The position numbers were made by a program, and so were the translations under genes. Under the pieces are notes generated by a model. The model was not told the origin of the DNA. It was given only the letters and a program-made list of their open reading frames with translations, and did not search any database. This document shows, piece by piece, positions 3,299 to 26,039 of a stretch of DNA of 44,109 bases. The number at the start of each line of letters is the position of its first letter. The stretch's first letter is position 1. This stretch comes from Chloroflexota bacterium (GTDB lineage Bacteria; Chloroflexota; Anaerolineae; Promineifilales; Promineifilaceae): assembly GCA_018004935.1 (NCBI GenBank), contig JAGNBF010000060.1:1-44109 (forward strand). Direction: 5' to 3'.

Positions 3299-3308
3299 AA
3301 TTTTCATG

Positions 3309-3824
3309 CTAGATGAGGGCCTGCAATGTGTCGTTTTCGGTGCGGGTGGTTAATCGGCGCAGGGGTTTGGTAGGTGCGCCGCTGATCACTTCCCCGGCAC
3401 GGGTAAAAAGTCCTTCATGGCAGGGGCAGGCGAAATGATTGCTCTCTTGTTGCCAACGAACCAGACACCCCAAATGGGTACAGGTGGCATCTAACACGGT
3501 GTACTCGATACCATCATCGCTGTAGGCATACAGAATGCCGGTTCGTTGCACCGTGCGCCAGGCATCCTGGCTGTTATAGTTGATGAGGATTTTGTGGACG
3601 GCCCCGGCGGGTAATGTCTGAAGCTGGCCCAGGTTTACCCATTGACCCTCGGCACTTTCCAGGGAGTCTCCTACCAGGAAACGTGTAGCCGAACCACCGA
3701 TGATCAACGCGGCCGCGCCGGTTGTTGTTAGCACCCCGGCCTTCAGAAACTGGCGACGGCTCATCGCCCCTTCGTCCCATGTTCCCTTTTCAGGGTTTAT
3801 TTCCGGCAACTGCTCGCTGGGCAT
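3309..3824 (-). CDS. Rieske 2Fe-2S protein of the bc-type complex
   Basis: The 171-residue protein has a Tat-type export signal, SRRQFLKAG (about 22-30), followed by a hydrophobic anchor (TTTGAAALIIGGSAT). The two cluster-binding boxes are CTHLGC (about 115-120) and CPCHEGLF (about 133-140), with the two Cys and two His needed for a Rieske centre. The domain ends with the usual PLRRL strand. In bc complexes this protein takes electrons from quinol at the cytochrome b Qo site. The start at 3824 is backed by the Shine-Dalgarno GGAGGAG just upstream. GCGGCCGC at 3709 encodes the GAAAL of the anchor. It is the first gene of the cluster. Confidence 0.95.
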   Translation of the reverse strand: MPSEQLPEINPEKGTWDEGAMSRRQFLKAGVLTTTGAAALIIGGSATRFLVGDSLESAEGQWVNLGQLQTLPAGAVHKILINYNSQDAWRTVQRTGILYAYSDDGIEYTVLDATCTHLGCLVRWQQESNHFACPCHEGLFTRAGEVISGAPTKPLRRLTTRTENDTLQALI

Positions 3825-5030: not shown

Positions 5031-5046
5031 GAGGAATTCCTTTGGC

Positions 5047-6891
5047 TTATTTGCCATTCAGGTGCATGACCGGCAAGGGGACGCTCACCCGGATGATTGT
5101 GCCCTGGCCGGGGGTACTGTCTATCTGCATCTGCCCCCCCATCAGCAAGGCCCGCTCACGCATACCGGCCAGACCTAGCCCCTGCCGCGCACTCACGAGA
5201 GGTTTTATCTGATTCCAGCCTGAGCCATTATCTGTCAGGGTCATGGTGATCAGGCCGTTGTTTTGTGCCAGTTGAATGGCGAGGTGAGTGGCCTGGCTGT
5301 GACGGGCAACATTATTCATGGCTTCCTGGGCAATACGGAAAAGGGTTGTCTCCATTTCTCCCGGCCAACGCCTGGAGGGGGGTACGGCTTCTATGTCCAC
5401 GGTTATGCCCAGGGGGCGCAAGGTATGATCACTAATCCAACGCAGGGCTGAGAGAAGGCCTAATTCATCCAGGATGCCGGGGCGCATGGCGGCAATAATG
5501 CGGTGGAGATCATCCATGGCCTGTTCTAACAGGGTACGCATTTGTTCCAGCCGTTGCTGACTCTCCGCGGCCGCGGGCGTAAGCGTTTTCGCCAGCCGTT
5601 CCATGCCCAATTCCAGGGCGGTGAGCGTCTGACCGATGGCATCGTGCAATTCCCGTGCCAGCCGTGCCCGCTCTTCTTCCTGAGCCGTGATCACCTGACG
5701 CAATAAATGCTGGGTCAGGGCTTGTTGCTGGCGCAAATCTTCTGTTTGCCCCTCAACCCGGCTCTCCAATGTTTCATTCCAATCGGCCAGAGCGTTGATA
5801 TGGGTCAGCAATTGCGTTCGCATATGATCCAGGGCCGTAGCCATCGTGCCGATTTCACCTGTTTGGGCCACACCCAATGGAGTTTGGAGTTCACCGGCGG
5901 CAATCTGTTGCGCGGCCGCGGTCAAATCTTGTACCGGGCGTAACAGGCGGCGCGTACCAAAGAGCGTCACAGTCCACACCCCCAACAAGGCCACGATGCT
6001 TAACAAGGCCAACCCCAGGCGTAAGCGGCGGATACCGCCATAGGTTTCGTCTACGTCACCGCCGACGGCCACCGCCCAGGGAGCCAACTGGAGAGGGGCG
6101 AAGGCCATGACATGCAATTCGCCGATTGTTTCGCCGGGTATGGCAATTTCTACCGGTACGGTTTCGACAACGGGTTGTCCCTGGGCCATCGCCCGGCGGT
6201 AGAAGGTGGCATGTTCGGCCGGTTGCATGAAGGGCAGGGGAAAGGTTGAAGCCAGGGTTAACCCAGCCTGGTTGACGAGGGTGGCATGACCGGTGATGCC
6301 TAACGCGGCCGCTTGTTTTAAGGGCATCATCATGGCCTGACTCTGTAACCGCACCAGGCTGACCACAATCCCGGCCAACTGATCGTTATCGTACAAGGGG
6401 ACGAGAATGGCCGCGGCCGCCTGATCCGGCAAAGGGGCGGTGACAACCATCTCTTGGGATTGGACCTGGTTGATATAAGGGTGGAGAAAGGTGATGGTTT
6501 CGGGCGACATGGGGGGAGAAGCGTAGGCAAGGATGACGCGGCCGCTGAGATCAAGACATGTGATACCCGGAGACAATACGCCCATCGGATTGTCGGCCAG
6601 ATGCAGGGTATCAACGACGGTCAGGAGATCAGGCCGGTAGGCGGTCTCCTGGATTAACTGATAATCCCGGTTGATGTCGGCAACGGCTTCACGCAACAAC
6701 CCATCAATTTGATTGGCGGCCATTTGGGCAATAATCAGCCGCTCTTGCTTCAGGCGTTCTCGCTCGTCGTGGAGTGCCTGCTCCCCCAGAACAGCAAAAG
6801 CGACAAACAGGGCGACAAACCCCAGGCTGATAGCCAGGGCCATACGCGGCCAAAGACCTAGATGAGACACGCGCCACTGAAAATGGGACAT
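5047..6891 (-). CDS. Membrane sensor histidine kinase, HisKA_3 (NarX/DesK-like) type
   Basis: This 614-residue kinase has a TM helix at about 16-35 and an extracytoplasmic sensor of about 250 residues. A second TM follows at about 290-310 (LALLSIVALLGVWTVTLFG), then a HAMP segment and a coiled coil (ESRVEGQTEDLRQQQ). The dimerisation/phosphorylation helix is ARLARELHDAIGQTLTALEL (His about 413). The ATPase domain shows FRIAQEAMNNVARHSQA (N box), TDNGSGW (G1) and GLGLAGMRERA (G2). It is a full paralogue of the kinase at 24141-26039. Six GCGGCCGC sites lie in it, mostly at places where the paralogue has other residues. The ligand is unknown. It is transcribed with the downstream regulator. Confidence 0.93.
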   Translation of the reverse strand: MSHFQWRVSHLGLWPRMALAISLGFVALFVAFAVLGEQALHDERERLKQERLIIAQMAANQIDGLLREAVADINRDYQLIQETAYRPDLLTVVDTLHLADNPMGVLSPGITCLDLSGRVILAYASPPMSPETITFLHPYINQVQSQEMVVTAPLPDQAAAAILVPLYDNDQLAGIVVSLVRLQSQAMMMPLKQAAALGITGHATLVNQAGLTLASTFPLPFMQPAEHATFYRRAMAQGQPVVETVPVEIAIPGETIGELHVMAFAPLQLAPWAVAVGGDVDETYGGIRRLRLGLALLSIVALLGVWTVTLFGTRRLLRPVQDLTAAAQQIAAGELQTPLGVAQTGEIGTMATALDHMRTQLLTHINALADWNETLESRVEGQTEDLRQQQALTQHLLRQVITAQEEERARLARELHDAIGQTLTALELGMERLAKTLTPAAAESQQRLEQMRTLLEQAMDDLHRIIAAMRPGILDELGLLSALRWISDHTLRPLGITVDIEAVPPSRRWPGEMETTLFRIAQEAMNNVARHSQATHLAIQLAQNNGLITMTLTDNGSGWNQIKPLVSARQGLGLAGMRERALLMGGQMQIDSTPGQGTIIRVSVPLPVMHLNGK

Positions 6892-9443: not shown

Positions 9444-11342
9444 TCAGTCAGTTGTTGAGAGCGGTTGAGTTTGGGCCGGGGGGGTGGTAAAGAGACCGCG
9501 GCCGCGTCCCATCAATCCTATTACCACCAGCAGTAACAACACGAACGCGGCCGCGACCGTCAGCAACGGTTGCCAGGCGCGATTCGATACCAACACCGGG
9601 CGGACAGGTCGCCCATCCCCTACCACCCAATCAAACGTAGCCACACTGTCTTCCAGCCCCAGACGCCGCACGACGACCGCTATTTGCCAGGCCCCGGACA
9701 GGTTCAACGCATCCCCACCCAGCAGATAACGGCCAGGTTCCATGGCCGTTGTCTCCATCGTCACCAAACCGAAATCCTGGTCTTGATATTGCAGGCGCAC
9801 TAAAACCCGGACTATCTCCGCAGGTGGTGGTCGCCGGGAACTCACCGCCCGTATGTCTAACACGTTTTGGCCGGGTAAATTCGGTTTGATAGCCAGGTTG
9901 ATCACCATATCGTCCACCGTCTGGCTGAGGGCAGTGGGGATCGTTGGGGGGGGCAAAAATTCAGCCCCTTGTGCCGTAGGGGCTGAGGTAATGAACCCCA
10001 CCACGCCCAGGAGTACAAGGCCCAGCAAAACCTCAGCCACCACCAGGCGGGGCAGATGAGCCAGCGTCAAGGGTGTCCAGCCAGGGGGACGCCTGAGCCA
10101 GCGAGCCACGAAGGTTGCCAGGGCGGGATGCAACAGCAGGGCATTGGTGAAACCGACCAGACCCACCACGAGCATCAAACCCACTTTTACCAGAAGGGCT
10201 TGCCCGTAAAGGGTGGAAATGAGGGCATCCAGGGAAACGACCTGGCGACCGGTGCTATACAAACCGGTGGCGATCAAGAGCAGAACGGCCAACAGGGCTA
10301 ATCGGCCAAAGGGGGCCCAACCGGCTTTGATCACCGCTTTGAATTGGGGGCGATGGTGGCGCAATAAAGGCAGTAACCCGATGGCGAGGGCCAGTAATCC
10401 GCCTACCCACACCCCGGCGGCGAGAAGGTGCAGGATGTCAACCAGTAAAGCCAGGGGGAGTTGGTTGGGCAGTGCGGCCGCGTGACTGGTCAATGATTGG
10501 CTAAACAGTAACAGCAAAAGGAGTCCCCAGAGCAGGAGAGGCTGAGGCTGTCGTTGCCGTGACAGAGCCAGGATCAGCACCAGCAAGGCCAGTTGCCGAA
10601 CGCCCCAAAGCACACCCAAACGACTGCTGAGCCAGGCTCCGGTAATAATCAGCAGGGCTGTTCCTTCGGGTAAGGAGCTTTTTAACTGGGTGGTTTGCCA
10701 GGCCAACCACAGCAGACCCACGATCAGCCCGGCCACGCACCACCACCAGCCCCAGTGCCAGATACGTCTCTGTGTCTGGTACAGAATGGAAGCCAGCGGT
10801 TCCGGGGAGTGAGCAGGTTTGAGGACGAAAAAATTGATCGCGGCCGCGCCGATCAGCCCCAGCAAAAAGGTGAAATTGAGCCAACGCAGGGCCACTTCCG
10901 GCCAGGCAATGGGGGTGACGGGGGCGGGGGATGCGGCCGCTGATACATTTGCCCCCGCGCCCACCCCAAACACGAAAAGCCCCTGCGTAAAATGCCCATC
11001 CGCCGTCGAATGGACGCGCCAAAGCACGCTATACACCCCATCCTCAATGGGTGGCAAGCCGATGATGAGCAGATTGTTTTGAGTCTCATCGGTTGCCAGG
11101 TGAATCTCCAGGCGTGTGCCCTCTGTGTCTAACAATTGTGCGCCACTAAACTGGGGCGAGATGGGTTCGGTGAACCAGAGGCGAACCTCTGTAGGGGGGG
11201 CTGACAAAATGGCGTTTTCACCGGGTTCTGAACGAAGCAGGGCCGCGTGGGCTGATACGGGGCGTGTGGTGCTAAGCGTGGTGACGATAACCACCATGAA
11301 CATCATGAACCATTTAGAAAAACGGTTAAAACCTTGTTTCAT
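9444..11342 (-). CDS. CopC-CopD fusion copper protein with C-terminal YtkA/FixH-like domain
   Basis: The 632-residue protein joins a CopC domain to a CopD-like membrane domain. After a signal peptide ending SAHA, CopC shows mature N-terminal [13 protein letters not shown] and, later, [14 protein letters not shown] with candidate copper His residues. About eight TM spans from residue 150 form CopD (copper-resistance membrane domain). The tail ([20 protein letters not shown] to about 600) resembles the YtkA/FixH-like beta domain, followed by a last TM. This CopC-CopD-YtkA order is known from bacterial YcnJ-type copper-uptake proteins. It probably moves or senses periplasmic copper for the nearby copper oxidases. 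It contains five GCGGCCGC sites. Confidence 0.9.
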
Positions 11343-11572: not shown

Positions 11573-12124
11573 TTATTGAACCGGTGAGCCAGAGGCGGGC
11601 GTAACATGCCAGACTCTGGACAACCGGATCAGTCCGGCAATCGCCATGACAAAAATCACCGAGCCACCTAACATCGCTGGCGACGTTCCGGCCTTGTCCG
11701 CCGGGACAGTCACCTGATCCAAATCGGCCGGGCTGATATGTTTGCCGATGGCAAAGACATAACTCCCTTCGCTGATGTCACCATCTACCAGGACGACAAG
11801 CCACTGAACGATGTAGATACCTTCGGGCAGAGTGGGTAGGGTCAGATGCAACGAGGTGTGTTCTGGGTTGTTGAGGTCAACCCCGCCCCGTGCCTGGTCA
11901 ATGGGTTTCCCTTTGGCGTTTAATACGAGCAAGGTACTGGTGGGGCTGATCAACTCCTCGGCAAACCAGAGGGTAATTTCAGCGGGTGACGCGCTGAGGA
12001 TGGCCTGGTTTTCGGGTGAGGTGCGGAGTGGGGTGATGGCGTGCGCGGCCGCGGTCCTCATCCCCAGGATCAGCCCCAACAACACGCCGCCCCAAATCCA
12101 TAACCATTTGCCCTGTTGCCGCAT
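11573..12124 (-). CDS. CopC-domain copper-binding protein with C-terminal membrane anchor
   Basis: About 183 residues: a signal peptide (IWGGVLLGLILGMRTAAAHA), then a CopC fold starting at HAITPLRTSPENQAIL, with ITLWFAEELISPT, YIVQWLVVLVDGDISEGSYVFAIG, and a C-terminal TM (GGSVIFVMAIAGLIRL). The mature N-terminal His is the usual first copper ligand of CopC. The ATG at 12124 follows AAGGGGG; a GTG at 12130 is in frame. It differs from the CopC half of the upstream fusion in lacking a CopD part, so it may be a stand-alone periplasmic copper carrier tethered to the membrane. GCGGCCGC at 12045 encodes the AAA next to the signal cleavage site. Confidence 0.88.
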   Translation of the reverse strand: MRQQGKWLWIWGGVLLGLILGMRTAAAHAITPLRTSPENQAILSASPAEITLWFAEELISPTSTLLVLNAKGKPIDQARGGVDLNNPEHTSLHLTLPTLPEGIYIVQWLVVLVDGDISEGSYVFAIGKHISPADLDQVTVPADKAGTSPAMLGGSVIFVMAIAGLIRLSRVWHVTPASGSPVQ

Positions 12125-12164
12125 GATCACCCCCTTAGGGTCTGTAAAAGATTAAGTTCCGGCA

Positions 12165-12226: not shown

Positions 12227-12727
12227 TTACTGCACGGGTACATTCTCCAAGACAACGCCCCCAATCCGTAACGTCACCGTGTCGCCCTGTTCGATGATGC
12301 CACCGGCATTTAGAATGCGATAACTGTACATCACCCCGGTATGAAGCTGGGGCACATGTGCCCCATGATGTTCGGCACGCCATAACTCTGTCTCGGTAGC
12401 CGTATCGGTGATGGTGGGGAGATCGTTTTCATCGTGAACCCCAAACGCCTTATCCGGGTCTGTGACCTGGTAACGGATGTCAATCATGCCGCCCCCAGCG
12501 GTCAGGGCAACCAGAACAACCCGGATGCCCGCCACATCTGTCAGGGTGGTTTGATTTAGTTCATTGGCGCTGATTGGGCCACGCGGCCGCAATACATCCC
12601 CAAATTCAGCCCAGATAAGCGCCACGGCTACGGCCCCCAAAACAAGAATGCCCATAACCAGCCACATATCCGTTCGATCCCTACGGGAATCAGCGATGGT
12701 TTGTTTACCGGAAATTGATTCAACCAT
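12227..12727 (-). CDS. Small membrane-anchored protein of unknown function in the copper cluster
   Basis: 166 residues: a cytosolic N terminus, one TM helix (WLVMGILVLGAVAVALIWAEF, about 22-42), then an all-beta extracytoplasmic domain ending in RIGGVVLENVPVQ. It contains a His-rich stretch, WRAEHHGAHVPQLHTGVMYSY, that could bind metal. I do not recognise the family. The start is supported by AGGAGG 5-6 nt upstream of ATG 12727. It lies between CopC and the oxidase-like genes on the same strand, so a role in copper handling or oxidase assembly is plausible but unproven. GCGGCCGC at 12583 reads as RPRG. Confidence 0.75.
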   Translation of the reverse strand: MVESISGKQTIADSRRDRTDMWLVMGILVLGAVAVALIWAEFGDVLRPRGPISANELNQTTLTDVAGIRVVLVALTAGGGMIDIRYQVTDPDKAFGVHDENDLPTITDTATETELWRAEHHGAHVPQLHTGVMYSYRILNAGGIIEQGDTVTLRIGGVVLENVPVQ

Positions 12728-12974: not shown

Positions 12975-14597
12975 TTACGGCGTGATGGTAGGGGGATTTG
13001 GGTGATTACTGGCCGAGCTATAGGTCCAACTAGAACGGATCAGGTTATTAACCGTGTACGAGGGGCTTCCGGCCAGGGTTGTGAAGCGCGTAACGGTACA
13101 CTGCCCGCTGGCATTGGTCGTACATGAGCTACTGCCTCCTGCCCCACCGCTCCAAGACCCACTGACCTGAACCCCCGATAACGGAGCGTGTGTGCTATTG
13201 TGAATGGTAATGGTGACAGAGCGTAAAAAGACTAAACGAAAACCACTCATACCCCCTACGTGCATCTCATTGGTTGGGGCAGGATTCACGGTGATGGTTA
13301 CATTGTCGCCAACGGCATATTGTCCATCGTTGGCCGTAAGGGTGAGGAGATAAGAACCGGCGACGGAGAAAGAGGCGGTGGTATCTTCCGCGGCCGCGTT
13401 GCCAAATGTCACTGTCCCCGGCCCACTGGCTGTCCAGAGAACCGTATAAGGCGCAACGAACCCATCATCCGTAACCGTACCATCGAGCGCGGCCGCGGCT
13501 GGCATCGTCACCACCTGATCCCCACCGGCATTCACCAGGGGTGGCACATTCGACGGCCCCCCGGTACCGGTTATCTCCAGGTAGGTCATCATACCACCAG
13601 GGAAGCTGGTCACATTGGTCAGAGCCATGTGCCGGTTGTAGAGCGGATATTGTTGTCCTATCGTGCCATTGGGAACCGTCGCGATGGTATCCAATGTTTG
13701 CCCCGAGGGGATGCTGGGAACCATCAACTCATACGGGAATGCTTCGGCATACCCATCTTTACCGACGACGGTCTGGTATAGTCCCAGCAGGGACATAGAA
13801 TGATGAATGAGACCGGCATTGACATAGCGGAGCAGGACACGATCATTCGTGTTGGCACCGATGTTGACGGTGTCTGGGAACGCCTGACCGTTGATGAGCC
13901 AATATTTAGGGCTGTAATCCAGTAGATCAAAGCCGCCCGGATTGCTGTTGAAGGCGGGGTCTAATTCGCTGAGGACCAGCACCGCGGCCGCGTCGTAAGC
14001 ACTTGCCGCCGTTCCATAAGCAGTCCCGGGGGCCGCGTGGACGATCAATGCCCCATACAACCCCATCGGCACTTGCCGTTCGGTGTTGACCCCACTTTCA
14101 TAGAGGAATGTGCCCGGATCATTCGTTACCAATGAATAGGTGGTAGAACTGCCTCCGGTAACACCGGTCAGGTCTGGCGCACCGGCTTGCCCCGGAAAGA
14201 CGAGCGAGCTGGTTTCGCTTAATTCGTTGTACAAAGTGATGTTGAGCGTATCGCCCACATTGGCCTCGATAATCGGGCCAGGCAGACCCGCCACAACGGA
14301 GCTATCGGAGCAGGGGACGCCGCTGGGTTTGAGGGCATACCCCCAGATGTCTACCACTGCCGCATCGGGCATGGTGACGGTTCCGGTTTTGGCGCATAGC
14401 TCCACCGTGACGGTAGCGGCCTGGGGAATGGCCGTCGTGCGGGCGGTTGAGGTGATGAGAGAGGGCAGTGCGGCCGCGATCTCCCCATCTCCTGCCTCAC
14501 TGGCTGATCTGGCCTGAATGGCTTGCCCAGAGAGCAAAGCCACCAGCAACAGGAGGCACAGGGTAAAACCTGCATAGCGTGTCATTTTATTCCACAT
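12975..14597 (-). CDS. Multicopper-oxidase-like protein without copper ligands, with PKD-like domain
   Basis: An exported two-cupredoxin protein with a C-terminal extension. The fold is recognisable by alignment with the next two genes: GPIIEANVGDTLNITLYNEL, GTFLYESGVNTERQVPMGLYGALI, YWLINGQAFPDTV, and GGMMTYLEI. Where active relatives have HWHG this protein has SLVFPGQ, and HCH is ESG. HPxHxHG is HHSMSLLG, so no copper site is complete. A PKD/Ig-like domain (VNAGGDQVVTMPAAAALDG, about 360-450) and a Ser/Gly-rich Ig-like tail follow. ATG 14597 behind AAGGAG is preferred; ATG 14618 behind AGGAGG adds seven residues. Probably a structural or partner subunit of the oxidase set. Confidence 0.8.
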   Translation of the reverse strand: MWNKMTRYAGFTLCLLLLVALLSGQAIQARSASEAGDGEIAAALPSLITSTARTTAIPQAATVTVELCAKTGTVTMPDAAVVDIWGYALKPSGVPCSDSSVVAGLPGPIIEANVGDTLNITLYNELSETSSLVFPGQAGAPDLTGVTGGSSTTYSLVTNDPGTFLYESGVNTERQVPMGLYGALIVHAAPGTAYGTAASAYDAAAVLVLSELDPAFNSNPGGFDLLDYSPKYWLINGQAFPDTVNIGANTNDRVLLRYVNAGLIHHSMSLLGLYQTVVGKDGYAEAFPYELMVPSIPSGQTLDTIATVPNGTIGQQYPLYNRHMALTNVTSFPGGMMTYLEITGTGGPSNVPPLVNAGGDQVVTMPAAAALDGTVTDDGFVAPYTVLWTASGPGTVTFGNAAAEDTTASFSVAGSYLLTLTANDGQYAVGDNVTITVNPAPTNEMHVGGMSGFRLVFLRSVTITIHNSTHAPLSGVQVSGSWSGGAGGSSSCTTNASGQCTVTRFTTLAGSPSYTVNNLIRSSWTYSSASNHPNPPTITP

Positions 14598-14630
14598 GAT
14601 TGGTTTCTCCTTGATCATGACGGCGACCTC

Positions 14631-15902
14631 CTATTGACAGCCGCCCGGCGGGTCAATGCGCCAGAGCGTCATCATGCCACCAAACCCTTCGTCAAAGTTT
14701 TGCACTTCATCCAGGGCGTGGCTGTGCCAGGGGAAGTAAAACTCCCCACAGAAGTTGTAATCCACGATAGCGGGGCGACGTAAATCGTTTTTCTCCCCCA
14801 GATACGGGCTATTGCTCCAGAATGTCTGATCATCTTTGTAGACCAGGTTGTAATCACCAGGGAGCTGAACCGGAATGGGGTTGGTGATGGGATCCCACCC
14901 TTCCACATCTTTCCAGGTGACGAGCATATCGAACGATTGCCCGGAACCCACTGTGGCCGTAAACCCTTCCATCGAAACATCTTCCCCAGATGGCCCCTGT
15001 AGCAAACGGCCATCACGGGCGATGATGCGGAGATGGTTGCCGTGGGGGTGGAACGGGTGATCACTCATGCTGGCACTGGCATAACGAATGAGTGCGGGCA
15101 GAGGATTACCGGCTGAGTAGGCCTCGATATCCACCAATCCCCCATACGGTTGGGCGGGTAGCCAGGGGACATTATTGCCATAAACGACATCCGGGAAAGC
15201 CCGCCCATTGATGGTCCAGTAATGGGGATGATATTGGGTGATGTCATACGCCTCCCCCCGCTCAACGGCCTGGTGTAGATAAGGATCGATCTCGTGCAGG
15301 AGCAGGAGAAACTCCCGATCGGGGTTGAATTCGGTGCTGGCGTGGTTGTAGGCGTAGTTGGCCCCCATCGTGGGTCGGATGATGAGTGCGCCATACAGTC
15401 CCATTTGCACCTGTTTGTGGGGGTTGGTGCCACTTTCATACAGATAAGTGCCGGGTTCGCTGGCGGTGAAGGTGTAACGGACGGTTTCGCCAGGGGCGGC
15501 TTCCAGGGTAAACAAGCCGGTTACACCTGATCCGCTGACCATCGCACTGGTGACATTGGCCTGACCAGGAAAAACGATAGAGACCGGTTCGCTCAGATCG
15601 TTGGTGAGGTTCACCTCGACGGTATCCCCTTCGTTGACGCACAGGATCGGGCCGGGCATCTGGAAACTACCGCCGGTGAGGGCAAAGCCCCACATATAAA
15701 TCTGGTTGCCATCGGGCATGATGATGTGCCCATCGGTGGCAGTCAGGTTATAGGTTGGCCCGGCGGTGCATAGAACGGCTAACCCGTCCGCGGCCGCGCT
15801 CTCTTTGCGGGCATTGCCGATGACCAAAAGGGTCATCACCAGAAGGGCCAGAGCCAACAACAAGAGCCTCAGCCACTTTGTTCGACTAACATGGTTTGTC
15901 AT
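14631..15902 (-). CDS. Multicopper-oxidase-like protein retaining only second-domain His motifs
   Basis: The 423-residue exported protein has two cupredoxin domains. Domain 1 has lost its ligands: SIVFPGQ stands for HWHG and YLYESGTNPHKQVQMGL for YxYHCHxxxxxHVQMGM. Domain 2 keeps HPFHPHGNH (His 282, 285, 287, 290) and PWHSHALDE (His 393, 395), but has Ser where a type 1 copper Cys would be. Thus it could donate trinuclear-cluster His only from domain 2. The signal is LRLLLLALALLVMTLLVIGNA. Shine-Dalgarno AAGGAG precedes ATG 15902. Only 12-33 bp separate it from the next gene, indicating co-transcription. Family membership is sure; catalytic activity alone is doubtful. Confidence 0.85.
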   Translation of the reverse strand: MTNHVSRTKWLRLLLLALALLVMTLLVIGNARKESAAADGLAVLCTAGPTYNLTATDGHIIMPDGNQIYMWGFALTGGSFQMPGPILCVNEGDTVEVNLTNDLSEPVSIVFPGQANVTSAMVSGSGVTGLFTLEAAPGETVRYTFTASEPGTYLYESGTNPHKQVQMGLYGALIIRPTMGANYAYNHASTEFNPDREFLLLLHEIDPYLHQAVERGEAYDITQYHPHYWTINGRAFPDVVYGNNVPWLPAQPYGGLVDIEAYSAGNPLPALIRYASASMSDHPFHPHGNHLRIIARDGRLLQGPSGEDVSMEGFTATVGSGQSFDMLVTWKDVEGWDPITNPIPVQLPGDYNLVYKDDQTFWSNSPYLGEKNDLRRPAIVDYNFCGEFYFPWHSHALDEVQNFDEGFGGMMTLWRIDPPGGCQ

Positions 15903-15940
15903 GGTTTCGTCTCCTTATTTGTGTACTGGTATCGGACCCA

Positions 15941-17257
15941 CTACACCCCAAAGGTTTGATTTGGTTCACTCTGGGCGGACAATGGATTTTGATAAATGCG
16001 TATCTCTGTCACCATCCCACCCAGACCAGGCATGTCATTGCTATTGGTCTTGTGATAATTCCGATTTTTGAACAGGTACAGGTTGTAATCTCCCTGTCCA
16101 TCTGTCCCGACAATGGCACTATTGTCAAACGCCGGGGCCACAAAAATGGCGTCACGCGCTTCACCCGGCCCGATGTAGAGGTTGTGGGCGTAATAGGTCA
16201 GGTTGGTTCCATCAGGGCCACGGAGTAACGTCGCATCGTGCCCTACGACCTTCATGGCGATGCCGGTCAACTGCATGGTATGTTCTTCGTAGCCGAGGTT
16301 AGCCATGCGGAGCAAAACCCGGTCGCCAGGATTGGCCTGGATGAGGGATGATATGGGTTGCCGGATCAGGCCATCCAGGGCCAATGAAGGATCGGTACTG
16401 CTTTTAACGGTGTCGGGGTAGACGCGCTGGTTGATGGTCCAATATTGGGGTTTGTAATCAGACCAGACAAACTCTTGAACGGCTTCGAGTTGATCATGCG
16501 GCCGCGTGTCAATTTCATTCAACAACAGGGCAAACTCCCGGTCATAAGCTGTCATGCCGTTGCCATCGTTGTAGACGTACTTGCCCGCCGGGACTGAGCC
16601 GGAGCCATTGTTTTGTTGCGGCCGCACAAACACAATTCCCTGCATCCCCATCTGCACATGCTCCGTATCCTCAAAGTGGCAATGGTACATGTACGTGCCA
16701 GGGTCACGGGGGCGGTAGAAGTAGGGGAAATCACGCCCTACAGGCACGGCAATGGAGACTTCAGGTACACCATCAAACGTGGATAGCGGGTTGCGGAAGC
16801 CATGCCAGTGGATGGTGTGCGAGTCGTCCAGGTCGGGCCGGTATACAAACCCCAGGTTGGTAAGGGTCAGGTAGACATCTTCCCCTTCGGCCACACTGAT
16901 GATGGGGGCGGGTGTCTGTACTTTGCCTTTGTAGGCCCCGATGACACTGTTTACCGGGTCGTTTACGCCCACACTGACAAAGCCAAAGGAGTAAAGGGGA
17001 TCACGGCCCGGCAGAAGTATGTGGCCGTCGGTGGCGGCCAGCCGGATGACGGGGTCTTGCACAACGGTAGCCATAGTGGGCGGCGCGGCCGCGGGAGATG
17101 TTTCTGCCATACCAAATACCTGCCTGGCGACTTGCGCTAACTTTTCGGCGTTGGCCAGCCCGGCGACTGTCAGCAAGGTCATTGCTCCACCGGTGCCAAT
17201 ACCTAGTTTCAAAAAATCACGCCGACTCATTTTGCGTGGAACTCTTTCATCATTCAT
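15941..17257 (-). CDS. Tat-exported multicopper-oxidase-like protein retaining only first-domain copper motifs
   Basis: 438 residues with a Tat signal (SRRDFLKLGIGTGG, about 11-24). Domain 1 has a full set: IHWHG (His 150, 152) and YHCHFEDTEHVQMGM (His 192, Cys 193, His 194, His 200, Met 203/205), fitting a type 1 site plus trinuclear-cluster His. Domain 2 lacks its counterpart: EEHTMQLTG replaces HPxHxHG and no C-terminal HxH is present. This is the reverse of the neighbour at 14631. In two-domain oxidases the trinuclear site lies between domain 1 of one subunit and domain 2 of the next, so a mixed complex is conceivable. Shine-Dalgarno AGGAGG precedes ATG 17257. Confidence 0.88.
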   Translation of the reverse strand: MNDERVPRKMSRRDFLKLGIGTGGAMTLLTVAGLANAEKLAQVARQVFGMAETSPAAAPPTMATVVQDPVIRLAATDGHILLPGRDPLYSFGFVSVGVNDPVNSVIGAYKGKVQTPAPIISVAEGEDVYLTLTNLGFVYRPDLDDSHTIHWHGFRNPLSTFDGVPEVSIAVPVGRDFPYFYRPRDPGTYMYHCHFEDTEHVQMGMQGIVFVRPQQNNGSGSVPAGKYVYNDGNGMTAYDREFALLLNEIDTRPHDQLEAVQEFVWSDYKPQYWTINQRVYPDTVKSSTDPSLALDGLIRQPISSLIQANPGDRVLLRMANLGYEEHTMQLTGIAMKVVGHDATLLRGPDGTNLTYYAHNLYIGPGEARDAIFVAPAFDNSAIVGTDGQGDYNLYLFKNRNYHKTNSNDMPGLGGMVTEIRIYQNPLSAQSEPNQTFGV

Positions 17258-17365: not shown

Positions 17366-20300
17366 TTAGGGTAAAGCAAACGCATCCAGATCGTTGGCCG
17401 CAAGACCACTGCCGTCGTAGAAGATGACAAAGCCACCCGGACAGGATGTATTTGTCCCAGTGATAGCCCCCTGACATATCCACACATCATCACCCCCGCC
17501 AGAGAAACTCCCACTGGCAACGCTGTAACCGGTAACGGTGCTCAGGTAAAGATTCCCGCCGGAGAAAGCGACTCCATCCAGGTTTTCATTTTGGGCGGTT
17601 GAAGTGGAACTTAAGCCAATATCAGAGCCATCTACATAGACAGACCAGGTGCAGGTTGTGGCCGGGCCAAATGTGCCAACACAACGCAGGCTATCATGAC
17701 CGACCGCGGCCGCGCCCGGTACTGAGGCACTACCCACGGTAGAGATAACCACACTGCCATCACCGAGAATGGAAAAGGCGTCAATATCTTCATTGGCACT
17801 ATCATCCAGGTCTACCCCAGCATCAGAGCCATCAAAGTACATCGTCCAGGTTCCGGCGTCGTAGCGCACCACATCTTCATCCTGCACCGTGCCCACACCG
17901 GGCACGCTTGTGCCACCATTGGCTTTGAAGGAGAGGTACAGGGTGTCACTGTCTTCTACAAACAGCCCATCCACATCGGCCCCACCGGGTAAACCTGCCC
18001 CACCGGCCCCGGAAGCGTTGAAGAATAGATCAAACCAGTAACCATTCCAGGTGTAGATGTTGGCGTTGTCGCCATCTACCACACCGGGAGGCGTTGTGTT
18101 GCTGGCGGTGGAGAAGTAAAGGATAACGGGTGGTTCACCTGTGCCTTCCGCCTCGTCTGCACCAATGTCGTAGGCTAACCCTTGCGGCCGCCCTTCATCA
18201 TCGTAGTCTGTGGTGACAGTCGCCATCGTTGTGCCTGCGTCAATGGCCGGTGAGCCGCTCGCCAGGTGATAATCGCCCGGCAGGGTTCCATCAATGTTGA
18301 CGGTTACAATAAAAACGGTGACAAAATTGGGTTCCTGACGGAAGGCAACGGCACCTAACGTTGTGGTGTAATCATCCACAAAGCCCGGATCTGTGCCGAT
18401 CAGGTTGCTGGGATCAGCGGCATGGGTAAACGTGCCCCCGCCAAACACTTCCAGGTCTATCACGCTATTGAAGGTGAGCGCCACCCCGTCCCAGGTGAAT
18501 GCCTGGTTATCCCAGATGAGGTTGTTACGCAGGTAGGGATCCGGGAAGCCCACCCCTGCTGACCCATAAGTGTCAATAAGATACGTCTCAAAATCGTTAC
18601 TGTAGGGTTCTACGACAAGTGCGCCTCCATGGGGTAGACCGTCACTATCTTCAGCCGTTGCGGTGTTGGTATTCCTGACAATGGTGTTGTTAAGCATCCA
18701 GACATCTGAAGCATCATCCATCGAAACACCACCGCCAAAATCCGTGGCGACGTTGTTGGCGATGATGTTGTTGTAGATGTCAATGGGATAATCCCACGGT
18801 TGGAGCAGGCGAATCGCCCCACCATCGTCATTACTCAAGTTAGCCTGGATGAGATTGTTGTAAATGGCTAACGCGCCAGAGCCGACCGTCATCACGATTT
18901 CGCCGGGGTCTTCCGTACAGGGGTTGTCGTACTCTACCCCGCCATCGGCCGGTTGGGGCAGACAGAACTGCTCTCCGGCCACCATAATGGCTCCGCCTTC
19001 GTCAAAGGCGTTGTTGTAGTAAAGCCGGTTGTGGTGGATGCTCCCGTCGTGACTGAGGCCGAAGTGGGAAATACCACCACCATACTCGGCGGAGTAGTTG
19101 CCGCAGATTTCGTTGTGATCAATTTCGTAGCCATCGGCCCCGTTGAAGATAGCCAGACCACCGGCCAGGCTGATGCCGCCGTTGTTGAGGATGCGGTTGT
19201 GGTGGATGTGAACATTGTCGTTGTTCATATCCCCTTCATAGGGTTCGCCCAGGACAATGCCGCCGCCGAGGTTGCCGCCGTTGCTCTGGATAACGTTATT
19301 GCTGATTTCCAGGTTTTCGGCGTTGGTTTCGGCGAATACGGCCCCACCGATACTGCCTTCGTCCCGGCCACCGGCGATGCGGAAGCCGTCTATTTGGGGA
19401 TTGAAAGCGGCGCTGAAGGTTCCGGGCGCGGCCGCGGTGACGATCAGCCCTGTACCCGGTGTAAACCGTTCATCCAGGACCGAGCCGCCCGTGCCAAACC
19501 CATCGGGTTGGCCTGGCCCGTGCCCTTGTAACTTCACCCCAGCCTTGTCTAACAGCAGGTTCTCGAAGTACATGCCGGGGGTGGCAATGATGAGGGTGTT
19601 GCTGGTCGCGGCCGCGATTGCATCCTGAAGCGGCGTCCCCAACGGATCAGGCGTTACCACCACCACCGTCGGCGAATACCCCGCCCCAATCTTGTGGAAC
19701 GTGATCCCCGTCTGGCTGGTTTGCCCATTGGCGGAGCGCACCAGCAGTTGATACCGCCCGGCCGCCATACCCGTGGGAATCGTCACCGCTACCTCACCGT
19801 CACTGATCCAGGTCACTTGCCCGGATGGAATCGGTGTGCCATTGGCCAGGACTTCACCCGCCGTGGGGCCAAAATTCTTGCCATACAGCGAGATCGTTTC
19901 TCCACCACTAGAATAAGGCTTCGAGGTGTACCAGAACTCTGGCATTCCATCTGGCGTAATACATTGCGCCGGTTGCCCATACTGTCCACCCGGAAACTCC
20001 ACAAACGCCGTAATCGGGAAGGTGGCTACGTCGGCATAAGTCGTTTTGCCCGGCCAGACATCAAAGATAAAGGTCAACGACTGGTAGTTAGGGTTGTAGT
20101 CCGGGTTAGGATTCGTCGGATCACCGGGGTCATTCGCCACCACCCGGTACATCGCCGGACAAACACCAGCGGGTGTGGGGCAGTTAGCGGTATGAGTCGA
20201 GGGGAGTAACACCTCAAAGATGCCATTCTCATCTGAGTGAACCGTGGCAATCAATCGCCCGGTGAAATCCCGAATACCCACCGGCGTGAAGGGAATCCCC

Positions 20301-22660
20301 CGCTTTTCACCGAAATAAATGCGGTTCGGGTCTGTTTCCACATTCACGTCATCCAACAAGAAGCCGTAGATGCGCCCCGGCATTGGTACGGCGTTTGCCG
20401 TCATCAGGAAAAACTCTGCCCCGGCATTATGCCCGGCCTGGAGTGTCACCAGCCGACGACTACAATCACCATTGGCACAGGGCGGAGCAATGAGTCCGGG
20501 AGGCGGATCATACTCTTCCCCATCTGAGGTATTGATGTCAGCCACGGTGATAGCCTTCATAAAGGCTGGTGACACCACCTCAACCACATAATCGCCTGGG
20601 GGCAAAGGTACTTCCGCCCCGCTTGGGTAGCCCGCAGGGAACATCGTCTCGAAGGCGTAACCGCCATCAAACAGCCCTTCCTTTACCTCGTTGGAGATGT
20701 TGGGCACTTCGATACAGTTGGTTCCCAGGCCCAGTGGATCAGTTTGGGGCACACCATCAGAGTCGGTGTAATCACAATTGGCGGGGTGTTCAAAGGCGTC
20801 GGTCTGCACCTCGTTGAGCAGAACCGTGCCGGTTGCGTCATAAAGCCGCACCGTCACATTGGGTACACCCGGCTCATAATCTTCGGCCCCGGAGAAACGC
20901 AAATCCGTTTCGTTGCGGGTCGTGGCGAAGAAGACGATGCCGGAGATGCCGCCATTCTCACCCGGGCCATAAACGAATTTACCCCAGTCAATCTGGCTTC
21001 GTTTGGCGGCCCAGGTCAAATTAGAGAGGGTGAGAACCCCTTCATAGGGGGTTGTTTGACTGTAATCAAATTCATTGTGGACGGAAGCCCCGGTAAAACC
21101 AAAGCGGCCAAAATCCACTTCAATAACGGCGAATTTTTCCAGTTCCTTCACTTCCGGGAACTCGTAATAGCCGTAGTTATCGGTGAGGGTTCCGTACTGA
21201 ATCGAACCATCCCGGTAGCGGGTCGCCAGAGGAATGCCATCAATCGGCCGCTCGCACGTACTTTCATCGGCCGGGTTGACACAATCGCGGATGCTATTGC
21301 CCGCAATCAGCGCAAACTGGGGCGTACCTGATGCATCCAGACCGTCATCCAGGAAGACATAACCGGCCAACCAGCCAAACCAGCGGGGCACACCCACATC
21401 GCCCATGCTGACGATCTCCCCTTCGGCAACGGTTACGGTGCGGAAGCCCATGATGTAGTCAAGGGGATCATCCCAAATCGCCATCTGGTATGTGCCAGCC
21501 GGGACGTTGCTGACGGTGAAGTTGCCGTCAGCATCCCCCTGGCCCAGATAAACCTGGCGGTCATTGTTGCCAATGTCGGTGAGGGCAATCCACGGTTTAA
21601 ACATGGGTTCGCCGAGTTGGACGGGGTTGTAAGGGGGTGTCCATTCAACGATGGTTTTTACCGTACCCATGATGGTTCCGGTTCCGGCCGTATCGTTGGT
21701 GGGGCAACTGTCCGCCGTATCCCCAAAGGCACAACGTTGCACAAAACCGACCCAAACCATGGCCTGTTGGAACCCTTCACGGGGGCTGAACCCTTGATCG
21801 CCCTCTTCGGCCCAGGCATCAATAATGTGTGTGCCTTCGATGGTGGTGGTCTGAATCCAGTCATTGTCTTCACCATCGGGGGGGAGGGTCAGGGTTTCAT
21901 ATTTGCCACGGGGCAGGTTGGGGATGATGGCATCGCCGTTGGCATCGGTGAAACAGACGCCACCAGTTCCGGGGATGGGATCACCCAGAGGGGTTGAGGC
22001 TCCTACCCCATCATATTCGGTGCAGATGGGGTTGCCATACCAGTCTACGGTCACTTCGCCGCCGGATTCGACGATGACGCGGAACCCTTCGAGGCCAGGT
22101 TCACGGGGGGCATCACCCAGGACGACATCATCTTCGCCGTTGACGGGGAAGTTGTCGCGGAAGACGTGGACACGAACCTGGGCCAGGGGCAGAGGGTCTT
22201 TGACCAGTTCCACGAGAACAGTAATGGCCCCGGTGGTATCGGTGATGACAATGTGTTGACCGCCAAGTTTATACCCATCGGCACGGACGGAAGCCAGGTA
22301 GCGACCATTGACCAGGGTGAGAGTGGCCTCGCCAGGGGCGGTTTCACTGCCCAGCCCGACGACAGGGCTGTAGCTGGCCATGTGTTTGAGGGAAGGATGC
22401 TGGTTGGGGTCAGGGTCGAAGGGGTCGCCGCTGTTATCTTCGTTGATCAGATAATCAAATTCGGCGATGAGGGGGCCGGTTCCGGGGGGCGCACCGGCAA
22501 CGTATTCGCGGACAACCAGGGTGATGTTGGGCGGTTGGGCATTTGTGCCGCGAACGAAGAGGATGCTCATCAGACAAGCCAGAGCGATAAACAGGAAAGG
22601 CCCCAAATGGCTTTGTTTGGGGCTGAGGTGGGCGAGCTTTTCTTGTACATTCGTCTTCAT
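17366..22660 (-). CDS. Giant secreted multidomain protein: Cna-B-like repeats, IPT/TIG, right-handed beta-helix
   Basis: 1764 residues with an N-terminal export signal (FLFIALACLMSILFVRGTNA). Residues about 45-880 are a chain of carboxypeptidase-regulatory/SdrD-B-like beta domains, each with the GxYxFxxVxxG-type strand pattern (GNFTVSNVPAGTYQMAIWDD, YGYYEFPEVKELEKFAV). An IPT/TIG-like domain lies at about 890-980 (GGETISLYGKNFGPTAGEV). A right-handed parallel beta-helix follows (about 1015-1500), with repeating turns such as IHHNRILNNGG, IDHNEICGNYS, IYNNLIQANLS and LNNTIVRNTNT, closed by DIGADE. The tail (1510-1764) has three related WTMYFDGSD-type repeats. It follows the degenerate receiver by 16 bp and precedes the oxidase genes. 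Probably an extracellular scaffold or carbohydrate/metal-binding fibre. GCGGCCGC occurs only in its last third. Confidence 0.85.
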   Translation of the reverse strand: MKTNVQEKLAHLSPKQSHLGPFLFIALACLMSILFVRGTNAQPPNITLVVREYVAGAPPGTGPLIAEFDYLINEDNSGDPFDPDPNQHPSLKHMASYSPVVGLGSETAPGEATLTLVNGRYLASVRADGYKLGGQHIVITDTTGAITVLVELVKDPLPLAQVRVHVFRDNFPVNGEDDVVLGDAPREPGLEGFRVIVESGGEVTVDWYGNPICTEYDGVGASTPLGDPIPGTGGVCFTDANGDAIIPNLPRGKYETLTLPPDGEDNDWIQTTTIEGTHIIDAWAEEGDQGFSPREGFQQAMVWVGFVQRCAFGDTADSCPTNDTAGTGTIMGTVKTIVEWTPPYNPVQLGEPMFKPWIALTDIGNNDRQVYLGQGDADGNFTVSNVPAGTYQMAIWDDPLDYIMGFRTVTVAEGEIVSMGDVGVPRWFGWLAGYVFLDDGLDASGTPQFALIAGNSIRDCVNPADESTCERPIDGIPLATRYRDGSIQYGTLTDNYGYYEFPEVKELEKFAVIEVDFGRFGFTGASVHNEFDYSQTTPYEGVLTLSNLTWAAKRSQIDWGKFVYGPGENGGISGIVFFATTRNETDLRFSGAEDYEPGVPNVTVRLYDATGTVLLNEVQTDAFEHPANCDYTDSDGVPQTDPLGLGTNCIEVPNISNEVKEGLFDGGYAFETMFPAGYPSGAEVPLPPGDYVVEVVSPAFMKAITVADINTSDGEEYDPPPGLIAPPCANGDCSRRLVTLQAGHNAGAEFFLMTANAVPMPGRIYGFLLDDVNVETDPNRIYFGEKRGIPFTPVGIRDFTGRLIATVHSDENGIFEVLLPSTHTANCPTPAGVCPAMYRVVANDPGDPTNPNPDYNPNYQSLTFIFDVWPGKTTYADVATFPITAFVEFPGGQYGQPAQCITPDGMPEFWYTSKPYSSGGETISLYGKNFGPTAGEVLANGTPIPSGQVTWISDGEVAVTIPTGMAAGRYQLLVRSANGQTSQTGITFHKIGAGYSPTVVVVTPDPLGTPLQDAIAAATSNTLIIATPGMYFENLLLDKAGVKLQGHGPGQPDGFGTGGSVLDERFTPGTGLIVTAAAPGTFSAAFNPQIDGFRIAGGRDEGSIGGAVFAETNAENLEISNNVIQSNGGNLGGGIVLGEPYEGDMNNDNVHIHHNRILNNGGISLAGGLAIFNGADGYEIDHNEICGNYSAEYGGGISHFGLSHDGSIHHNRLYYNNAFDEGGAIMVAGEQFCLPQPADGGVEYDNPCTEDPGEIVMTVGSGALAIYNNLIQANLSNDDGGAIRLLQPWDYPIDIYNNIIANNVATDFGGGVSMDDASDVWMLNNTIVRNTNTATAEDSDGLPHGGALVVEPYSNDFETYLIDTYGSAGVGFPDPYLRNNLIWDNQAFTWDGVALTFNSVIDLEVFGGGTFTHAADPSNLIGTDPGFVDDYTTTLGAVAFRQEPNFVTVFIVTVNIDGTLPGDYHLASGSPAIDAGTTMATVTTDYDDEGRPQGLAYDIGADEAEGTGEPPVILYFSTASNTTPPGVVDGDNANIYTWNGYWFDLFFNASGAGGAGLPGGADVDGLFVEDSDTLYLSFKANGGTSVPGVGTVQDEDVVRYDAGTWTMYFDGSDAGVDLDDSANEDIDAFSILGDGSVVISTVGSASVPGAAAVGHDSLRCVGTFGPATTCTWSVYVDGSDIGLSSTSTAQNENLDGVAFSGGNLYLSTVTGYSVASGSFSGGGDDVWICQGAITGTNTSCPGGFVIFYDGSGLAANDLDAFALP

Positions 22661-23525: not shown

Positions 23526-23981
23526 TTACGGTATGTGAGGCAGGTTTTGTTGTTTTTGATAGGCCTGAATGAGGCTTTGAGCCAGTTTGGGCGATAAATA
23601 AATATGACCGGCGTGGACAGTTTGAATGGCATGAACAAGCTCTTGACTGTCGGAACCTTTCAAAAAATAACCTACAGCCCCTGCGCCCAGGGCGGTAAAA
23701 AAGAAATTATCTTCACCATACATGGTCAGCATAATGATTTTTGTGTCTGGTTTCGCGGCCAGGATGTGGGGAATCGCTTCTAGCCCGTTCATACCCTCCA
23801 TCTTGATGTCCAACAGTACGACATCTGGGTGTGTGGTCTGAATCAGGCTTATGGCTTCCTGACCGTCACTGGCCTGGCCTAGAATTGCCAGGGCAGGCTC
23901 ATCATGAAGGAGGTTTACTAAACCCTGACGAATGATTTCGTGGTCATCAACAATGACGATTTTGATGGGCTGGTTGATCAT
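23526..23981 (-). CDS. Receiver-only response regulator (no DNA-binding domain)
   Basis: About 151 residues from ATG 23981 (MINQPIKIVIVDDH); an upstream ATG at 24017 is in frame. It has a complete receiver: VDDHE, VVLLDIKMEGMNG with the acceptor Asp, IIMLTMYGED and FLKGSD. It matches the receiver of NarL-type regulators and continues through LSPKLAQSLIQAYQ, the linker that in the regulator at 4389 leads to the HTH, but stops there. No HTH was found in any frame downstream, so it is a truncated regulator or a true single-domain phospho-shuttle. It directly follows a kinase gene on the same strand. Confidence 0.85.
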   Translation of the reverse strand: MINQPIKIVIVDDHEIIRQGLVNLLHDEPALAILGQASDGQEAISLIQTTHPDVVLLDIKMEGMNGLEAIPHILAAKPDTKIIMLTMYGEDNFFFTALGAGAVGYFLKGSDSQELVHAIQTVHAGHIYLSPKLAQSLIQAYQKQQNLPHIP

Positions 23982-24009
23982 AATAGGATGAGTAAAGGTA
24001 ACTATGCGG

Positions 24010-24096
24010 CCCCTCACCCTGACCCTCTCCCCACTGGGGCGAGGGAACCAACTCCCTTCTCTCTCAGAGGGAGAAGGGCCGGGGATGAGGGTGAAT
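24010..24096. repeat. CCCTCACCCTAACC-type dispersed repeat, copy 2
   Basis: ccctcaccctgaccctctcc...gggatgagggtgaat is the same family as 11356-11438, between the kinase and the receiver-only gene. Confidence 0.8.
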
Positions 24097-24140
24097 AATT
24101 ACGAGTAAAGTGACAGATGATTTGTTGGTCTATCGGGTTG

Positions 24141-26039
24141 TTATGACAATGTTTCATCTTTATGCAGGGACAGGTTTACCTGGGAGTCAGGGGAAACCGG
24201 CACTGTTACATGGACAAGTGTTCCCATTTGTGGCTGGCTGGTAATTTCCACAACGCCCCCGACAAGGGACGCACGTTCTTGCATACCGGCCAGTCCCAGT
24301 TGTTGGGATACGACGCCCCCATTCAGGGGTCTGCTTTCATAACCAGTCCCATCGTCCTGAATAATGAGGTGCAACTTGTCAGCCTGGGTAGACAACCGGA
24401 TGGAGACGTTTTTGGCCTGGCTATGGCGCACGATATTGTTGACGGCTTCCTGAACAATGCGGAAGAGAATGGTTTCAATGTTTTTGGAGAGATCAGACGG
24501 GAAAGGTTCTACTTGAATCGAAACGTGGATGCCCTGGGGTGCTAAGAATTGCTGGCTGATCCAATGGAGAGAGGCAACCAGGCCAAGCTGGTCGAGAACG
24601 CCGGGACGGAGAGCGGTCACAATACGTCGGAGTTCGGTGATTGATTGGTGTGTCAGTTGGCGGCACTGTTGTATGTTGTTGCTGAGCAGGCCGTTGTGTT
24701 GGGCCGCTTTTTGTTCCAGATGGGTGAGGTTTAGTTCAATGGCGGTAAGGGTTTGCCCAAACTCATCATGTAGCTCACGGGCAATGCGGCCGCGTTCCTC
24801 TTCTTGTGCCGATATGGTGCGATGGAGCAGTTGTTTGGTGAGTTCTTGTTGTTCTTGTAACTCTCTGGTCTGGGCGGTAACGCGGGCTTCCAATACTTCA
24901 TTCCATTGAGATAGCTTCTCGATGTTGGCCAGAAGTTGGCGGCGCATGTTATCCAGGGCCGAGGCCATGACACCGATTTCTCCGCCATCAGTAACATTGA
25001 GTTGCACATCAAGCCGACCGGCGGCAATATCATTGGCGGTGTTTGTCAGTTGTTGTACTGGTCTGACTAAACGATTCGTGCCAATGAGGGTAACGCCCCA
25101 GGTGACGACTAAGGTGGTGAGGCTTAACAAGGCTAACCCAAGACGCAGGCGGTAGATACCGGCAAAGGTCTCACTGCCCACATCACCACCTATGGCGACA
25201 CCCCAGGATGTGGTTTTTAGGGGTACGTAGGCCATGACATGAAGATGACCCAACGGTTCATTGGGCAATTCAAGCTCAAAGGGAACGGTTTGGATGGTGG
25301 GTTGGCCCTGAAGAATGGCTTCCTGATAAAAGCTGAAATGTTCTCCGGGTGATAAAAAAGGCAGGTGAAAGGTGGAAATGAGGACTTTGCCCTGGGCGTC
25401 TACCAGAACAGCATGAGCTGTCTGTCCTAAAGCGGCCGCTTGCACCAGCGGTTGTTTTAAATCGTTGCTGTCCAGATTGATAAGGCCACTAATGAGGCTG
25501 ACGAGTTCTCCCTGGTGCAGGATGGGGATAGTGATGGCAACCACGGGTTGGTTGGTGGTGGCGGAACGGAAGGGATGGGAGATGTTGAGGCTTTGTTGTT
25601 GCATCGCGGCCGCGATGTGACTCTCCACCGAAAGATCATCCGCAACCGTATAAAGACCCGGCGGATTACTCAAAACAACCCGCCCCTGGGCATCCAGAAA
25701 AACAATTCCCGCCGTAAAATGACTGATTTCCCCCAACGTATGCTCCAACACATTAGTTTCGGCCGAAAGGTCGGGATCGGTGGCGTCAAAATCAGCCAAT
25801 ACCATTGCCTGTTCTAGCTCGTGAATGGCCTGTATCAGGAAACCGTCTAGCTGGTTGGCAACCATCTGCGTAATAGCCAACCGTTCAGCCAAAATGCGAT
25901 CCGTGCTTTCTTGTAAAGCTCGTTCGCCCAAGAGCCAAAAAGCCAGGAAGAGCACGATGAAACCAAAAGTGATGGCGAGAGCCATGCGCGGCCAGAGTTT
26001 GAGTTGGAAGGCCCAGGTTCGTAATTGGTTCATAAACAT
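24141..26039 (-). CDS. Membrane sensor histidine kinase, HisKA_3 type, paralogue of the 5047 kinase
   Basis: 632 residues with TM at about 14-35, an extracytoplasmic sensor, TM at about 300-320, HAMP, coiled coil (LEARVTAQTRELQEQQ), H-box EERGRIARELHDEFGQTLTAIEL (His about 423), and ATPase motifs IVQEAVNNIVRHSQ, DDGTGY and GLAGMQERA. It aligns along its full length with the kinase at 5047-6891. Its ATG at 26039 shares bases with the stop of the upstream regulator (TAATG), so the two are translationally coupled. Of its GCGGCCGC sites, 25432 (QAAALG) is shared with the paralogue; 24786 (ERGRIA) and 25606 (IAAAMQ) are not. Its signal is unknown. Confidence 0.93.
   Translation of the reverse strand: MFMNQLRTWAFQLKLWPRMALAITFGFIVLFLAFWLLGERALQESTDRILAERLAITQMVANQLDGFLIQAIHELEQAMVLADFDATDPDLSAETNVLEHTLGEISHFTAGIVFLDAQGRVVLSNPPGLYTVADDLSVESHIAAAMQQQSLNISHPFRSATTNQPVVAITIPILHQGELVSLISGLINLDSNDLKQPLVQAAALGQTAHAVLVDAQGKVLISTFHLPFLSPGEHFSFYQEAILQGQPTIQTVPFELELPNEPLGHLHVMAYVPLKTTSWGVAIGGDVGSETFAGIYRLRLGLALLSLTTLVVTWGVTLIGTNRLVRPVQQLTNTANDIAAGRLDVQLNVTDGGEIGVMASALDNMRRQLLANIEKLSQWNEVLEARVTAQTRELQEQQELTKQLLHRTISAQEEERGRIARELHDEFGQTLTAIELNLTHLEQKAAQHNGLLSNNIQQCRQLTHQSITELRRIVTALRPGVLDQLGLVASLHWISQQFLAPQGIHVSIQVEPFPSDLSKNIETILFRIVQEAVNNIVRHSQAKNVSIRLSTQADKLHLIIQDDGTGYESRPLNGGVVSQQLGLAGMQERASLVGGVVEITSQPQMGTLVHVTVPVSPDSQVNLSLHKDETLS

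Follow-up and report, generated by a model that had tools for sequence, protein, structure and literature searches.

Three tandem oxidase-like paralogues with complementary copper ligands, a candidate split-site multicopper oxidase

A contig of a Chloroflexota bacterium (JAGNBF010000060.1, assembly GCA_018004935.1) carries three neighbouring genes, here called A, B and C, whose products resemble two-domain multicopper oxidases. None of the three supplies both halves of a trinuclear copper cluster, as A has no ligands in domain 2, B has none in domain 1 and C has none in either, and the question raised by the locus is what the three proteins form together. Coordinates refer to the window, the whole stretch of 44,109 nucleotides that was analysed (positions 1 to 44,109 of the contig, forward strand). 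In the known two-domain oxidases, which are trimers, the cluster lies between domain 1 (D1) and domain 2 (D2) of neighbouring subunits (PMC13151041). It is highly likely that A, B and C form one obligate ABC heterotrimeric multicopper oxidase of this trimeric two-domain type, with a single oxidase centre at the A.D1/B.D2 interface.

Copper ligands of the three subunits

The three genes lie on the same (minus) strand, and each product has two cupredoxin domains with matches to multicopper oxidase domains of the Pfam Cu-oxidase families (Table 1). The closest comparison is with the type C oxidases mgLAC (2zwn) and the blue copper oxidase of Nitrosomonas europaea (3g5w), which have the same two-cupredoxin fold, with the T1 copper in domain 1 and the cluster ligands split between D1 and D2. 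In the alignment, A.D1 matches 3g5w and 2zwn at each motif in turn. Read in this way, A supplies the T1 His, Cys, His and Met together with four cluster His, and it is the only one of the three subunits with this T1 site in domain 1. B.D2 pairs with the part of 3g5w domain 2 that bears the HxH (a PDB search with the B profile gave matches mostly to domain 1), and B by its sequence supplies the remaining four cluster His, so that the cluster His of A and B total eight, four from A.D1 and four from B.D2. Since A holds the whole T1 site, the A+B pair reconstitutes the site of a type C two-domain oxidase. In C, domain 1 reads SLVFPGQ and FLYESG and domain 2 has no HxH. Counted over A, B and C, one of three possible cluster sites is kept, whereas the known type C oxidases are homotrimers with three identical sites; the proposed complex would have three paralogues and one site per trimer.

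Table 1. Features of the oxidase locus and its immediate surroundings in the window
Feature	Positions	Strand	Basis
CopC-CopD fusion, copper handling	9444-11342	-	Pfam
CopC-domain copper-binding protein	11573-12130	-	Pfam
Small membrane-anchored protein, unnamed conserved family downstream of C	12227-12727	-	Loci of several phyla
Subunit C, 547 aa; two ligand-free cupredoxin domains, then PKD and Ig-like domains	12975-14618	-	ORF, Pfam
Subunit B, 423 aa; other half of the cluster in domain 2; domain 1 ligands replaced by conserved FPGQ / SG	14631-15902	-	ORF, Pfam, alignment
HSH in B.D2; two cluster His, T1 Cys lost	14718-14726	-	Alignment
HPFHPHGNH in B.D2; two cluster His	15033-15059	-	Alignment
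YLYESG in B.D1	15429-15446	-	Sequence
VSIVFPGQ in B.D1, where A has HTIHWHG	15561-15584	-	Sequence
Subunit A, 438 aa, Tat signal; ligands in domain 1, none in domain 2	15941-17257	-	ORF, Pfam, alignment
EEHTMQLTG in A domain 2, without HxH	16262-16288	-	Sequence
YHCHFEDTEHVQMGM in A.D1; two cluster His, T1 Cys, T1 His, T1 Met	16643-16687	-	Alignment
HTIHWHG in A.D1; T1 His and two cluster His	16799-16819	-	Alignment
SRRDFL, twin-arginine motif of A	17210-17227	-	Pfam TAT_signal
Giant surface-type protein; SdrD_B, carboxypeptidase-regulatory-like, TIG, beta-helix, choice-of-anchor Q	17366-22660	-	Pfam

The division of ligands recurs in 60 distinct loci from Chloroflexota, Actinomycetota, Pseudomonadota and Bacillota, a number obtained after removal of exact duplicates that includes loci from near relatives and does not stand for 60 independent events. 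The ligand columns of A read H/H/H/H/C/H in all 58 readable rows, the second T1 His is present in 59 of 59, and the T1 Met in 58 of 59, with one Leu. The four His of B are found in 60/60, 60/60, 56/56 and 56/56 rows. In every readable row B has lost the T1 Cys (HSH or HNH where HCH would stand), with Asn, Ser, Val or Ile and never Cys at that position, and its T1 His is usually gone (14 of 60 retain a His). The initial annotation, which had ascribed to A all domain 1 motifs and none in domain 2, and to B the reverse (SIVFPGQ and ESG in domain 1, HPFHPHGNH and HSH in domain 2), is borne out both in the window and across these rows. For C it had described loss of the ligands in both domains, which holds as well, while the gene end given at 14597 is refined, since the longest ATG frame runs from 12975 to 14618 and 14597 corresponds to an alternative start.

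One could read the losses as neutral erosion of redundant paralogues, and a C without any ligand would fit such decay. In this form the idea is refuted by the persistence of the complementary pattern, essentially without exception, down to about 32% identity in four phyla, and the motifs that replace the ligands, FPGQ and SG, are themselves conserved; we regard decaying duplicates as hardly credible.

Distribution, gene order and origin

Separate profile searches found A and B in the identical 9 of 400 Chloroflexota genomes, adjacent each time, and at E 1e-60 none of the 400 carried A only or B only, a result bounded by the thresholds used, at which more diverged orphans would escape detection. 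Within the order to which the window belongs, 56 genomes were searched, with B turning up in 11 and A in 12; the additional A belongs to a locus that runs off the contig end (G023). Searches with B alone gave matches in 6 of 248 genomes of an actinobacterial order, 2 of 38 of the family Methylococcaceae and 7 of 399 of Burkholderiales, and all loci retrieved from these groups contain A, B and C. Scanning named genomes with B yielded 26 loci, including some from Methylococcaceae, Oxalobacteraceae, Acidimicrobiaceae, Bacillota and the cultured Humibacillus xanthopallidus; in all of them A lies upstream and, contig ends aside, C follows B on the same strand. The order A-B-C is invariant in every uncut locus, including those from the later genome searches. 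Each locus encodes A, B and C by three genes of their own; where C is part of a fusion, as in some loci, its partner is the giant surface-type protein and in no case A or B. Phage records gave no match. The initial annotation had called for a check of co-conservation, with genomes carrying one of the two genes alone counting against a shared site; no such orphan appeared, and the sole mismatch, 12 against 11, is explained by the contig end.

A chance origin of the ligand pattern is rejected on the fixed ligands in the 60 loci and the co-occurrence of A and B. The same observations bear on the view that the subunits work independently, A being a T1 blue-copper electron carrier, B and C binding copper or having a structural role, and no trinuclear cluster being shared. 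Single-gene type C oxidases (L003) do occur in the same genome, as this view would allow, but the four cluster His of A and the four of B are invariant and would be needless for a T1 carrier or a lone half-site, and neither A nor B occurs as an orphan, so that independent subunits appear very improbable.

When A, B and C are placed in a tree alongside type C, type B and NirK relatives of the window's order, a branch with support 100/96 has all three subunits together on one side, and within them B pairs with C as its sister (98/96), i.e. (A,(B,C)). This topology fits two tandem duplications before the spread of the system, followed by complementary loss. Two individual loci deserve mention in their own right. 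One Chloroflexota genome holds two complete A-B-C triads about 11 kb apart (L068 and L069, G300:C98), and in another locus (L080, G460:C83) B is split over two reading frames by a frameshift or an assembly error.

Predicted arrangement of the subunits

The structural model was built on a locus (L045) in which all three genes share one reading frame, which allowed its natural DNA to be translated straight through from A to C, with glycine in place of the two TAA stops. The read-through gives one chain of 1191 residues that stands in for A-B-C and in which the signal peptides act as linkers; both the read-through stops and these linkers could influence the packing in the AF2 model. With an alignment of 47 rows, every one of which was checked to lie on the right subunit, AF2 returned the chain with pTM 0.87 and pLDDT 83.9, and the model is confident in how it sets the three subunits relative to one another. 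In alignments that combined individual subunits with the A-B-C chain, rows were wrongly assigned to A; these alignments were left out of the folding, and a 13-row run gave a weak model (pTM 0.39) that was kept as a control for the fold search. C matches the folds of 3g5w and 2zwn with Z 30.7 over the C subunit part; the VIA-align rows are covered by the C subunit and are uninformative on ring order.

Ceruloplasmin, hephaestin and factor VIII likewise consist of three two-domain units with one of three cluster sites surviving. The ceruloplasmin type holds its six domains in one polypeptide, with T1 sites in domains 2, 4 and 6, whereas A-B-C is encoded by three genes with the T1 site in A.D1. 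Counted in gene order, the A-B-C cluster would join domains 1 and 4 rather than 1 and 6 or 2 and 3 (PMC3600357), which corresponds to the ring order A-C-B. An A.D1-B.D2 contact thus requires a ring order opposite to that of ceruloplasmin, and it was predicted, before the result was read, that a sequential superposition should fail. In the Foldseek search with the model, ceruloplasmin and factors V/VIII rank first by E-value over about 1400 columns with TM 0.20-0.23 and an rmsd of 33 A; all six domains align locally and the sequential ring order of the three units is not matched. The three-domain laccase of Thermus aligns with the good model over about 770 columns (TMt 0.69-0.71) and with the poor one at 0.40-0.47. 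The length of this alignment suggests that B.D1 and C.D2 take the positions of laccase domains 1 and 3, with D1(n) facing D2(n+1). We infer such contacts from the model, as the laccase match and the failed ceruloplasmin superposition, which by itself would fit other arrangements too, agree on them.

Coevolution was assessed by APC-corrected mutual information, taking the top 200 inter-subunit column pairs in 47 triads (Neff about 37). Among the 12 domain pairs, A.D1-B.D2 is the most enriched, 2.7-fold over expectation, and in 75% jackknives it stays at 2.0 +/- 0.24, followed by A.D2-B.D2 at 1.5; the latter pair is likewise enriched, 1.5-2.1 fold. No excess was seen for B.D1-C.D2 or C.D1-A.D2 in the 47 triads. 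The signal points to an A.D1-B.D2 interface. The hetero-oligomeric oxidase of A and B first suggested for this locus is thus supported by the lack of orphans, indirectly by the modelled chain, and by coevolution at A.D1-B.D2.

It could still be argued that the active complex does without C, as a mixed A/B trimer or an A-B dimer, and that C is a separate surface adaptor: the ligands are confined to A and B, and so is the coevolution signal. C nevertheless retains the two-domain cupredoxin fold and always comes after B, and AF2 puts all three subunits in one arrangement with pTM 0.87, which leaves a complex without C distinctly improbable. In the ABC heterotrimer, the ring would be closed by D1 of each subunit packing on D2 of the next, giving the interfaces A.D1/B.D2, B.D1/C.D2 and C.D1/A.D2. 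At A.D1/B.D2, A and B would each contribute four His to hold the trinuclear cluster, which would receive electrons from the T1 copper of A.D1 via the His-Cys-His link, as in a single type C site, while the ligand-free B.D1/C.D2 and C.D1/A.D2 interfaces would be structural.

Genomic surroundings and relation to known metal oxidases

Most loci with an intact upstream side have a large ORF ahead of A, in the window the one for the giant surface-type protein. In Cupriavidus metallidurans CH34, Paraburkholderia and one further locus (L096), C is part of a protein of 2700 residues whose remainder resembles the giant of the window, and this fusion links C to the giant. The structural role first suggested for C is in keeping with the fusions in Cupriavidus and Paraburkholderia, which support structural or anchoring work, and C probably tethers the complex to the giant surface protein, to which it would fix the oxidase via its Ig/PKD tail or by direct fusion. 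In CH34 and L096, type II secretion genes lie immediately upstream. The triad of CH34, which is a laboratory strain, (L089, NC_007974.2 1334914-1353933) is located on the second replicon, and the plasmid collection lists no gene at this region.

The small protein at 12227-12727 belongs to a family that follows C in many loci, again in Paraburkholderia, and that has no Pfam or NCBIfam match; its members, including L090:21688-22176, share the pattern GIRVxLxAVTAxGGxxDxRYxVxDPxKA. We propose it as an assembly factor, i.e. it may help to assemble the complex. Chloroflexota and actinobacterial loci can carry CopC/CopD, and proteobacterial loci encode SCO1 together with a cytochrome c that bears a periplasmic-binding domain; copper would be supplied by CopC/CopD in Chloroflexota and by SCO1 in Proteobacteria. 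MofC-like cytochrome c proteins lie downstream of the triad at L053:9946-11610 and L091:14848-16500, and the L091 cytochrome includes a periplasmic-binding domain, a feature described in MofC-type proteins of Fe(II) oxidisers. Farther out in the window, a Rieske protein, a cytochrome b and an ethylbenzene-dehydrogenase-type haem-binding protein (1043-3824) form a possible respiratory module beyond the copper cluster, and Cache/HAMP histidine kinases with LuxR-type response regulators are found on both flanks (4389-6891 and 23526-28215).

The shared A-B site might also belong to a copper enzyme other than an O2-reducing oxidase, for example one resembling nitrite reductase or one that passes electrons on to a cytochrome. 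NirK is among the fold relatives, and the cytochrome c and SCO1 of the proteobacterial loci would suit the latter. NirK has a T1 copper and one type-2 copper, with an Asp where the cluster has its second His. In contrast to NirK, all eight cluster His are kept here, and A has a His at the second HxH position in 58 of 58 rows, which makes a different copper enzyme an unlikely reading.

Returning to an oxidase, the Mnx complex of Bacillus (MnxEFG; 9bxa) is also a multi-subunit multicopper metal oxidase and gives a six-domain fold match. Its whole active site lies within MnxG, and the partners of MnxG are not paralogous oxidase halves. MofA/OmpB are large extracellular multicopper oxidases, and some A-B-C loci have a mofC-like cytochrome and SCO1 nearby. 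Unlike A-B-C, MofA is described as containing all four multicopper oxidase motifs in one protein (PMC8218464).

The closest published counterpart comes from Sideroxydans lithotrophicus ES-1, where He et al. described three tandem multicopper oxidase genes with a mofC-like cytochrome and a copper chaperone (PMC5566968). According to Keffer et al., levels of this cluster (Slit_1812-1818) are higher with magnetite than with Fe(II)-citrate; they reported canonical multicopper oxidase motifs in two of its proteins and adhesin and polysaccharide-lyase-like domains in the third, larger one, and noted relatives in Paraburkholderia and Ralstonia (PMC12016527). Like the A-B-C loci, Slit_1812-1818 as presented in the accessible parts of these papers combines three tandem cupredoxin/multicopper oxidase genes, the third of them large, with small proteins, SCO1 and a cytochrome with a periplasmic-binding domain. 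Matched solely by published description and architecture, it is very probably the same system. Complementary half sites are not mentioned in the accessible parts of either paper (PMC5566968, PMC12016527), and the open-access literature searched contains no report of a split active site of this kind. By analogy, the magnetite response of the Sideroxydans cluster suggests extracellular oxidation of Fe(II)/Mn(II). The complex would then act outside the cell as a metal oxidase for Fe(II), possibly also Mn(II), and would reduce O2; both substrate and O2 use are inferred, and the substrate is the weakest step of the mechanism.

Taken together, it is likely that A-B-C is the first known hetero-oligomeric multicopper oxidase in which the halves of the trinuclear cluster come from two gene products, an unfused counterpart of ceruloplasmin that occurs in several phyla, is anchored to giant surface proteins and serves the extracellular oxidation of solid or dissolved metal. 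A motif script that requires a single protein to contain every ligand would rate A and B as incomplete, and such systems may therefore have been overlooked. A-B-C would provide a living example of the long-proposed step towards ceruloplasmin-type oxidases, in which a two-domain trimer was triplicated and redundant sites were lost, and its active site of three proteins is open to testing and gives a mechanistic handle on a gene cluster linked to growth on magnetite.
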